A stretch of 64,000 nt of DNA from Rhodobacteraceae bacterium QY30 (lineage in GTDB: Bacteria > Pseudomonadota > Alphaproteobacteria > Rhodobacterales > Rhodobacteraceae). Positions 47,229-50,368 of the stretch are shown here, one piece after another. Made by a program: the position numbers and the translations under genes. The stretch covers positions 2,774,501 through 2,838,500 of the forward strand of contig CP023454.1 of assembly GCA_002356635.1 (NCBI GenBank), given 5' to 3'. The stretch's first letter is position 1, and every line of letters begins with the position of its first letter. The notes beneath the pieces are model-generated. The model saw only the letters and a list, made by a program, of their open reading frames with translations, was not told the DNA's origin and made no database searches.

Positions 47229-47300
47229 GGTGGCGCGCGCGGAAAACCGCTCGCGTCCTGCTCCGCCCCCTCCCAACAGCCCATAGCAAGAGTGATGACG

Positions 47301-48707
<1,407 letters not shown>

Positions 48708-48745
48708 GCGGTTCGCGTCGGCGAATCCCCAAGAACCGAATCAGT

Positions 48746-48773
48746 GGCCGGCCCGGTTTGCTCCGGGTCGGCC
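48746..48773 (+). terminator. rho-independent terminator after leuC
   Basis: GGCCGGCCCGG, a 6-base loop and CCGGGTCGGCC make an 11-bp stem with one G-T pair, followed by TTCAATTTT. It separates leuC from the next gene and therefore from leuD. Confidence 0.75.
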
Positions 48774-48862
48774 TTCAATTTTCTGTGCTGCGGCAGATTG
48801 AACACAGATTCGGCGACAATTAGGGACTAAGGCAGTCCTTCCTTTCTTCTGACGCAGTTTTG

Positions 48863-48925
48863 CCTTATTTTGTTCTGCGTGGCGTTTTGAGGCCGCCACG
48901 GGTGTGAAAAAAGAACAAAATAAGG
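48863..48925 (+). promoter_or_regulatory. nested inverted repeat sequestering the ribosome binding site of the VPLPA-CTERM gene
   Basis: Outer arms CCTTATTTTGTTCT (48863-48876) and AGAACAAAATAAGG (48912-48925) are perfect reverse complements of 14 bases. Inside, CGTGGCG (48878-48884) and CGCCACG (48894-48900) form a second perfect 7-bp stem with a 9-base loop. The 3' outer arm ends in TAAGG, part of the ribosome binding site AAGGTGG, seven bases before the GTG start at 48933. In RNA this would occlude translation initiation; as DNA it could be an operator. The outer arms are strikingly AT-rich for this genome. No known family recognised. Confidence 0.7.
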
Positions 48926-48932
48926 TGGTATC

Positions 48933-49682
48933 GTGTTCAAGCGTATGGCTGCGGGCCTTGCCGTAGGCATTTGGTCCCTTGTGTCTGTTGCGCATGCGGC
49001 GACATTGACGGTCGATGGCATTGCGGGAAAATTCGTCAATACCGTTTCGGGAAATGTCGGCAACGGCGCGCTGACGGGCCGGGGCACCAACACGATCGCG
49101 TGGGGAACACCCTGGACGGCGGCGGACACAAGAAGCAGCTATACCTTCGCTGGGCAACCGACCACGAAATCGACGCCGGGCGCGTTCCTGATCGGATCCT
49201 ATACCCATAAGAACGGCACCATTGCCGGGCGGTCCGATTACCTGCGGACCACCGATCTGAACGTGTCGGTGACGGGCTTTGCGGGCAGCATCGCCTATTC
49301 GATCCTGTCGGCCTTCTCGCTGACCCATGACGAAACGCTGAATTACACCGGATGCCCGGCGGCGCAGAATCCCTGCGGTGACCTGGTGACCATCGCCAAC
49401 AAGACCCAGGGCTCGATCACGATCACTGACGGGCTGGATGTCTACCAGTTGATCATCGACGGCTTTGTCGAAGCCTTGGGCGGGCCCATCGTCACCAGCT
49501 TCCTGACGGCCGAGAACAAGTCCAAGACGCTGTACCTTCAGGCATCGCTGCGCCTGTCGACCATGCCCCCGCCCCCGCCGCCTCCGCCGCCCCCCGCGCC
49601 GGTGCCGCTGCCGGCAGGCGGCGCCGCACTTCTGGGCGGGATCGCGGCGCTGGCCGTGCTGCGCCGCCGTCGCAACGCCTGA
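48933..49682 (+). CDS. VPLPA-CTERM sorted secreted protein (THxN-type)
   Basis: A 249-aa exported protein with a signal peptide ([20 protein letters not shown], likely cleaved after AHA), a Thr/Ser/Gly-rich beta-type domain containing YTHKNGTI (the THxN motif of a PEP-CTERM-related family), one Cys pair ([11 protein letters not shown]), then a run of ten prolines and the C-terminal sorting signal [20 protein letters not shown] plus RRRRNA (motif, helix, basic end). Such proteins are processed by a dedicated exosortase, not seen in this window. GTG start with AAGGTGG upstream; ATG at 48945 is an alternative. It sits between leuC and leuD. Confidence 0.85.
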
Positions 49683-49762
49683 AACACGGCGTTCTTCACT
49701 GGAATCCCGGGCGCAGCGCGTGTAAGCCTGCGCCCGTTCCTCTTTCTGGAAGGGCCACCGCC

Positions 49763-50368
49763 ATGGACAAGTTCACCACGCTGACCGGAATCGCGGCGCC
49801 GATGCCGCTGGTCAACATCGACACCGACATGATCATCCCGAAGCAGTTCCTGAAGACGATCAAGCGGTCGGGTCTGGGAAAGAACCTGTTCGACGAGATG
49901 CGCTACAACCAGGACGGCTCCGAGATCGCGGACTTCGTGCTGAACCAGCCTGCGTACCGCAATGCCGAAATCATTGTCGCCGGTGACAACTTCGGTTGCG
50001 GGTCGTCGCGCGAACACGCGCCCTGGGCGCTGCTGGATTTCGGCATCCGCTGTGTCATCTCGACCAGCTTCGCGGACATCTTCTTCAACAACTGCTTCAA
50101 GAACGGCATCCTGCCGATCGTACTGCCGCAGGAAACGGTCGACATCCTGATGCAGGATGCGCGCAAGGGCGCCAACGCGCGGCTGACCGTCGACCTGGAA
50201 GGCCAGACCGTCACCACTTCGGATGGCCAAAGCTTTGGTTTCGAGATTGACCCGTTCCGCAAGCATTGTCTGCTGAACGGTCTGGATGACATCGGGCTGT
50301 CGCTGGAAAAGGTGGCCGCAATTGATCGTTTCGAAGCAAGCGCCGCGCAATCTCGTCCTTGGGTCTAA
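49763..50368 (+). CDS. leuD: 3-isopropylmalate dehydratase small subunit
   Basis: Partner of LeuC, forming the swivelling substrate-binding domain. The 201-aa product begins [20 protein letters not shown] and has [32 protein letters not shown] and the later [19 protein letters not shown]. Length is typical. It is separated from leuC by the VPLPA-CTERM gene and needs its own promoter in 49683-49762 or read-through from there. GGAAGGGCCACCGCC precedes the ATG. Confidence 0.97.

Follow-up and report, generated by a model that had tools for sequence, protein, structure and literature searches.

A nested inverted repeat over the ribosome binding site of a VPLPA-CTERM-type gene in Rhodobacteraceae: a candidate element of translational control

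Introduction

What is a perfect inverted repeat, closed around a second perfect stem, doing across the ribosome binding site of a surface-type protein gene? The locus that raises this question lies in a 64-kb stretch of a Rhodobacteraceae genome, the whole of which we refer to as the window. Hairpins in 5' leaders that sequester the ribosome site are a known means of translational control by secondary structure, so the kind of mechanism considered here is familiar, and nothing in the hairpin is categorically new. We tentatively favor, with a confidence somewhat short of even, the reading that the repeat may form a cis-acting hairpin in the 5' leader and so reduce translation of a VPLPA-CTERM-type gene. 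The hairpin would be restricted, as far as we have searched, to the genus, tight in the species of the window and loose in its sister, and it represents a plausible, unproven gene-control element of narrow distribution.

If functional, the repeat would be a translational control element acting on a VPLPA-CTERM-type protein, and the two species would offer a tight/loose pair in which to study the gain and loss of leader hairpins. VPLPA-CTERM is scarcely named in the open-access literature we searched, where a study of a denitrifying reactor does name it, and no comparable leader on PEP-CTERM, VPLPA-CTERM, or choice-of-anchor genes appeared among the titles listed in that literature.

Results and discussion

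The repeat and its gene

Table 1. Features of the locus, in coordinates of the window
Feature	Position	Strand	Remarks
Upstream neighboring ORF, presumably leuC	47292-48707	+	ORF list; taken from its translation to be the 3-isopropylmalate dehydratase large subunit
Intrinsic terminator 3' of leuC	48746-48773	+	Terminator scan; stem differs in sister (L008:1511-1536), full pairing kept
Weak promoter candidate TTGAAC-17-TAGGGA	48798-48826	+	Transcription start ~48833; TAGCGA in sister; score 8.2
Outer stem, 5' (left) arm	48863-48876	+	CCTTATTTTGTTCT; candidate -10 element TATTTT at 48866-48871
Inner GC-rich stem, 5' arm	48878-48884	+	CGTGGCG
Inner GC-rich stem, 3' arm	48894-48900	+	CGCCACG; CGCCATG in sister, pair kept as G-U
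Outer stem, 3' (right) arm	48912-48925	+	AGAACAAAATAAGG; AAGG of ribosome binding site at 48922-48925
Surface-type protein gene	48933-49682	+	GTG start; choice-of-anchor K / THxN-like, VPLPA-CTERM-type C terminus
Downstream neighboring ORF, presumably leuD	49763-50368	+	ORF list; taken from its translation to be the small subunit

A first-pass annotation of this DNA had described perfect 14-base arms enclosing a perfect 7-bp stem, with the AAGG of the ribosome binding site in the 3' arm, and this description is exact (Table 1). The outer arms are complementary at 14/14 positions with 35 nt between them, the inner arms at 7/7 positions around a loop of 9 nt, and the AAGG precedes the GTG start by 7 nt. 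The arms are also more AT-rich than their surroundings, as had been noted, with 4/14 G+C against 67% in the window. The nested repeat as first described is real and non-random: the outer repeat is the sole perfect inverted repeat of at least 14 bp with a loop of 3-60 nt in the window, where 60 dinucleotide shuffles in 200-bp blocks led us to expect a mean of 0.083, and it is beyond chance since none of 20,000 dinucleotide shuffles of positions 48783-48932 contained a repeat of 14 bp (31 contained one of at least 11 bp). A sample of 400 kb of the same 3.55-Mb genome held 4 inverted repeats of at least 14 bp, with loops of 4, 5, 6, and 19 nt and arms of 21-50% AT, none of which was AT-rich with a long loop. 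Folding positions 48850-48960 as RNA, a check that the annotation had suggested, gave a structure matched by 1 of 200 shuffles (z = -2.54), a result less striking than the rarity of the repeat itself.

The annotation of the downstream gene as encoding a surface protein is upheld by the score of its 249-aa product against choice-of-anchor K (79 bits, cut-off 30), with VPLPA-CTERM at about its cut-off. The VPLPA-CTERM score is 25.3, just below the cut-off of 25.35, and 29.7, above it, in the search of the genome, which contains 4 VPLPA-CTERM matches over the cut-off including this gene. Against the THxN family PEP-CTERM protein the product scores 78.4, below the cut-off of 85.

Predicted occlusion of the ribosome site

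When the gene is folded in silico with 90 nt of its leader, the AAGG has a probability of being unpaired (P unpaired) of 0.001, and when the upstream part is shuffled with the last 20 nt kept, the mean rises to 0.534 and 0 of 200 shuffles are as low as 0.001. The earlier proposal that the repeat would hide the ribosome site in the mRNA is thus borne out in the predicted fold. The predicted cost of opening the region from the Shine-Dalgarno sequence (SD) through the start codon is 12.5 kcal/mol, versus 6.4 kcal/mol in the sister. This prediction depends closely on where the transcript begins: P unpaired is 0.001-0.006 for starts at or before ~48863 and 0.26-0.66 for starts at or beyond 48865, from which occlusion is much weaker. 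In these models the RNA hairpin would require a transcription start no later than ~48863, and the transcription start would be the hinge on which the reading turns.

If transcription begins upstream of 48863, both arms would be in the mRNA. The GC-rich inner stem would presumably fold first as the leader emerges and nucleate the 14-bp outer stem, which would then cover the AAGG and could block the 30S subunit. Candidates for opening the structure, or for preventing it from forming, include an RNA-binding protein, an sRNA, a helicase, processing of the transcript, or ribosomes that load before folding ends. In the sister, changes in both arms may weaken the hairpin and leave the gene partly open. 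One point against the hairpin reading is that a perfect stem of 14 bp would leave the gene almost permanently switched off.

The trigger is unlikely to be temperature alone, since the SD is still shut at 60 °C: P unpaired is 0.0004 at 30 °C, 0.0008 at 37 °C, 0.0013 at 42 °C, and 0.008 at 60 °C. The suggestion of an RNA thermometer is therefore not supported, and one of the fourU or ROSE kind is unlikely; for fourU, moreover, the AAGG of the SD pairs with CCUU and not with UUUU. The likeness to fourU and ROSE elements, as excerpts of PMC4166951 present them, is an SD inside a 5' leader hairpin; the differences are that the stem here is perfect and shut to 60 °C, that its SD lies opposite CCUU, and that the gene is not a heat-shock gene. 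The closer comparison is with SD-sequestering leader hairpins in general, with which the repeat shares a 3' arm that covers the SD at the predicted opening cost given above, and from which it differs in its perfect 14-bp arm with a nested stem, in an occlusion that is not conserved in the sister, and in a trigger that is putative.

Other kinds of RNA element fit less well. Across 48700-49100 no match to an Rfam family attains the gathering score, in agreement with the earlier remark that the structure matches no known riboswitch, and none of the 3 sub-threshold matches in this region lies over the hairpin. An intrinsic terminator at 48863-48925 was considered and rejected, because TGGTATC and not a U run follows the right arm and the terminator scan reported none there. 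We also observed that TAAGGCA at 48828-48834 could pair with TGCCTTA at 48861-48867, where the left arm begins, as an alternative to the outer stem; in the sister a mismatch interrupts this helix.

Comparison with the sister species

Our search of the genus yielded one other genome (G001, the sister), so the comparison is one of two species. An additional search for close relatives returned a single locus, which is probably the sister genome again, and 588 further stretches retrieved by pattern gave no confirmed relative, with patterns that do not fit even the sister; no relatives were found on viral contigs (40 stretches) or on plasmids. The sister protein is 84% identical, its leader aligns across the entire hairpin, and the GTG start and AAGGTGGTATC are kept.

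The first-pass annotation had made its proposal depend on conservation in relatives, and the outcome is divided. What stood is that positions 48863-48932 are constrained: 63/66 aligned bases are identical in the sister (leaving out gaps, with 4 bases deleted and 1 inserted in the sister), compared with 237/337 fourfold sites in leuC and leuD together (182/250 and 55/87, leuC by protein alignment; Fisher p = 2e-6) and 64/80 bases in the leader just upstream (p = 0.006). Part of this conservation belongs to the ribosome site and the start context themselves. Pairing is kept at 19/21 positions, 12/14 in the outer stem and 7/7 in the inner stem, one of the latter as G-U. What did not stand is the occlusion: 2 of the 14 outer pairs are broken in the sister, whose right arm carries one insertion and one deletion, its SD has a P unpaired of 0.48-0.59 with leaders of 66-150 nt, and its leader is no more stable than shuffles (z = -0.30; 70/200 as good). 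The arms also lie 44 bp apart, center to center, in the sister and 48 bp in the window, a shift of 4 bp that is tolerable for an RNA hairpin.

Compensatory changes, which the annotation had proposed to look for, are absent from all 21 pairs, a weak result with two species. The intrinsic terminator after leuC served as a positive control for compensatory change beside the hairpin. Several pairs of its stem have changed on both sides between the sister species, and it still folds fully in each (-24.9 and -21.2 kcal/mol). Unlike this terminator with its two-sided changes, the hairpin does not have pairing as the best-kept feature of its leader.

Homologs in the wider family

A protein search across the family sample found matches in 51/394 genomes, many of which cover no more than the sorting tail, and we examined 15 longer loci outside the genus (L009-L023). 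None of these 15 homologs has a perfect repeat of at least 8 bp (loop to 70 nt) over its ribosome site. For folding we used 17 leaders, those of the window, the sister, 13 of the 15 homologs (all but L012 and L020), and two tandem second copies, with homolog starts placed mostly at the in-frame start codon nearest the expected position. The SD was hidden beyond 95% of shuffles in 2 of the 17, the window and L010 (P unpaired 0.016, with 2% of shuffles as low). Occlusion conserved across homologs, for which L010 and L017 had looked promising by eye, was rejected as only L010 passed (L017 has a P unpaired of 0.335), and among 17 tests one result at the 2% level could arise by chance. We also searched with a covariance model built on the leader, which recovers the window at E = 5e-36 and the sister at E = 3e-20. 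In the other 392 genomes of the family, searched with stricter filters at the cost of some weak matches, it has no match better than E = 0.048; the hits outside the genus, in 4 genomes with E 0.048-0.725, we take as noise.

Where transcription might start

The terminator after leuC makes a promoter of the gene's own in 48774-48862 a reasonable expectation, and the surface-protein gene probably has one. The upstream candidate in Table 1 is joined by a second, TTTCTT-17-TATTTT, common to both species, with a start at ~48878 and a score of 7.6, and both candidates lie below the mean top score of shuffled sequences (8.77). Simple promoter scans are weak in Alphaproteobacteria because most of the promoters analyzed there lack the last T of the -10 element, according to excerpts of PMC8407463. 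A scan with a sigma-54 consensus, allowing at most 3 mismatches, gave 3 matches in the locus sequence searched (L007; 6.08 expected by chance) and none in the leader, and a sigma-54 promoter was rejected. This separates the gene from pepA, a PEP-CTERM gene whose expression depends on RpoN in the excerpted account of PMC9850573: in both, the gene carries an exosortase-type sorting signal and its expression is regulated, in our case putatively, and they differ in that the candidate control here lies in the leader, which has no sigma-54-like match.

Between the leuC terminator and the repeat lies a second terminator-like hairpin (48822-48840; 7 pairs and a pyrimidine-rich tail). Its fold does not stand out from shuffled sequence (z = -0.67), and its counterpart in the sister has only 4 pairs, lies in a different register, and is absent from the terminator scan.

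Alternative explanations

If the second promoter candidate is the real one, then the left arm is itself promoter, with TATTTT as its -10 element; transcription would start at ~48878 and the outer arms would never pair in RNA. The mRNA would instead open with the inner GC-rich stem as a 5'-end hairpin, which may stabilize the message. This would account for the gene being expressed at all, for the AT-rich left arm, and for an inner stem kept at 7/7 while the outer loses 2/14, and it is consistent with the conservation of TATTTT and of the TTTCTT 17 bp upstream and with the much weaker occlusion from starts at or beyond 48865. We nevertheless consider it rather unlikely, since its -35 element is poor, its score is below that of shuffles (as is that of the upstream candidate), and it leaves to chance or mutation a 14-bp complementarity that 0/20,000 shuffles reproduced. 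Mutation could have supplied it: two separate indels set the right arm apart from its counterpart in the sister, both of which bring it into exact complementarity with the left arm, and these may be explained by one copying event, a template switch that perfected a quasi-palindrome with a core of ~9 bp like that of the sister, with or without an effect on expression. Hairpin stems can be created and repaired by template switching, as described in excerpts of PMC8794818, and quasipalindrome-associated mutation has been described in E. coli (excerpts of PMC7202029). Our case resembles the former in that clustered changes separate an imperfect inverted repeat from a perfect one, with the difference that here, with two species compared, the change may have run in either direction. 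Slippage in A runs plus one substitution in the sister lineage would give the same picture, and a template switch leaves the high conservation of the leader without explanation, so we regard this origin as unlikely. That such a mutation also shut the ribosome site in one species while that of the sister stayed loose, so that a replication error sets how much of an exosortase-type surface protein is made, we would rate as distinctly improbable.

The arms could also act as DNA, as a paired operator with each half bound by a regulator of the gene, and the 9-mer TATTTTGTT does occur only in these two arms within the window (0.03 expected) and again in both arms of the sister. The earlier suggestion of such an operator did not hold up for a pair of fixed spacing, as the change from 48 to 44 bp is a shift of more than a third of a helical turn. 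The half-sites are not palindromic themselves, the right arm on a ribosome site would be an unusual place for an operator, and when at most 2 mismatches are allowed the 14-mer matches the 3.55-Mb genome 3 times, twice at this locus and once at a single site with 1 mismatch, versus 9 times for the reversed control. Without further paired sites there is no regulon of that exact site, and we think an operator very unlikely. The same distribution of the 14-mer led us to reject the ends of a mobile element or MITE. Finally, a T-rich promoter stretch may simply have met an A-rich ribosome-site stretch, a coincidence with which the unremarkable stability of the sister leader would agree; the local shuffles, with no repeat of 14 bp and 31 of at least 11 bp in 20,000, make this extremely unlikely.

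The leuC-leuD neighborhood

In both the window (47292-50368) and the sister, leuC and leuD flank a THxN / choice-of-anchor K-like gene whose tail is of the VPLPA type. Motifs of both leuC and leuD were found in the fetched flanks of 10/15 homolog loci from other genera (L009, L010, L014-L017, L019, and L021-L023), so placement between leuC and leuD is shared across genera. We found no mention of leuC/leuD together with PEP-CTERM in the open-access literature we searched. Such genes occur as tandem pairs in three genomes: L046/L047 (G218), L049/L050 (G159), and G152:C62:3190-4924.
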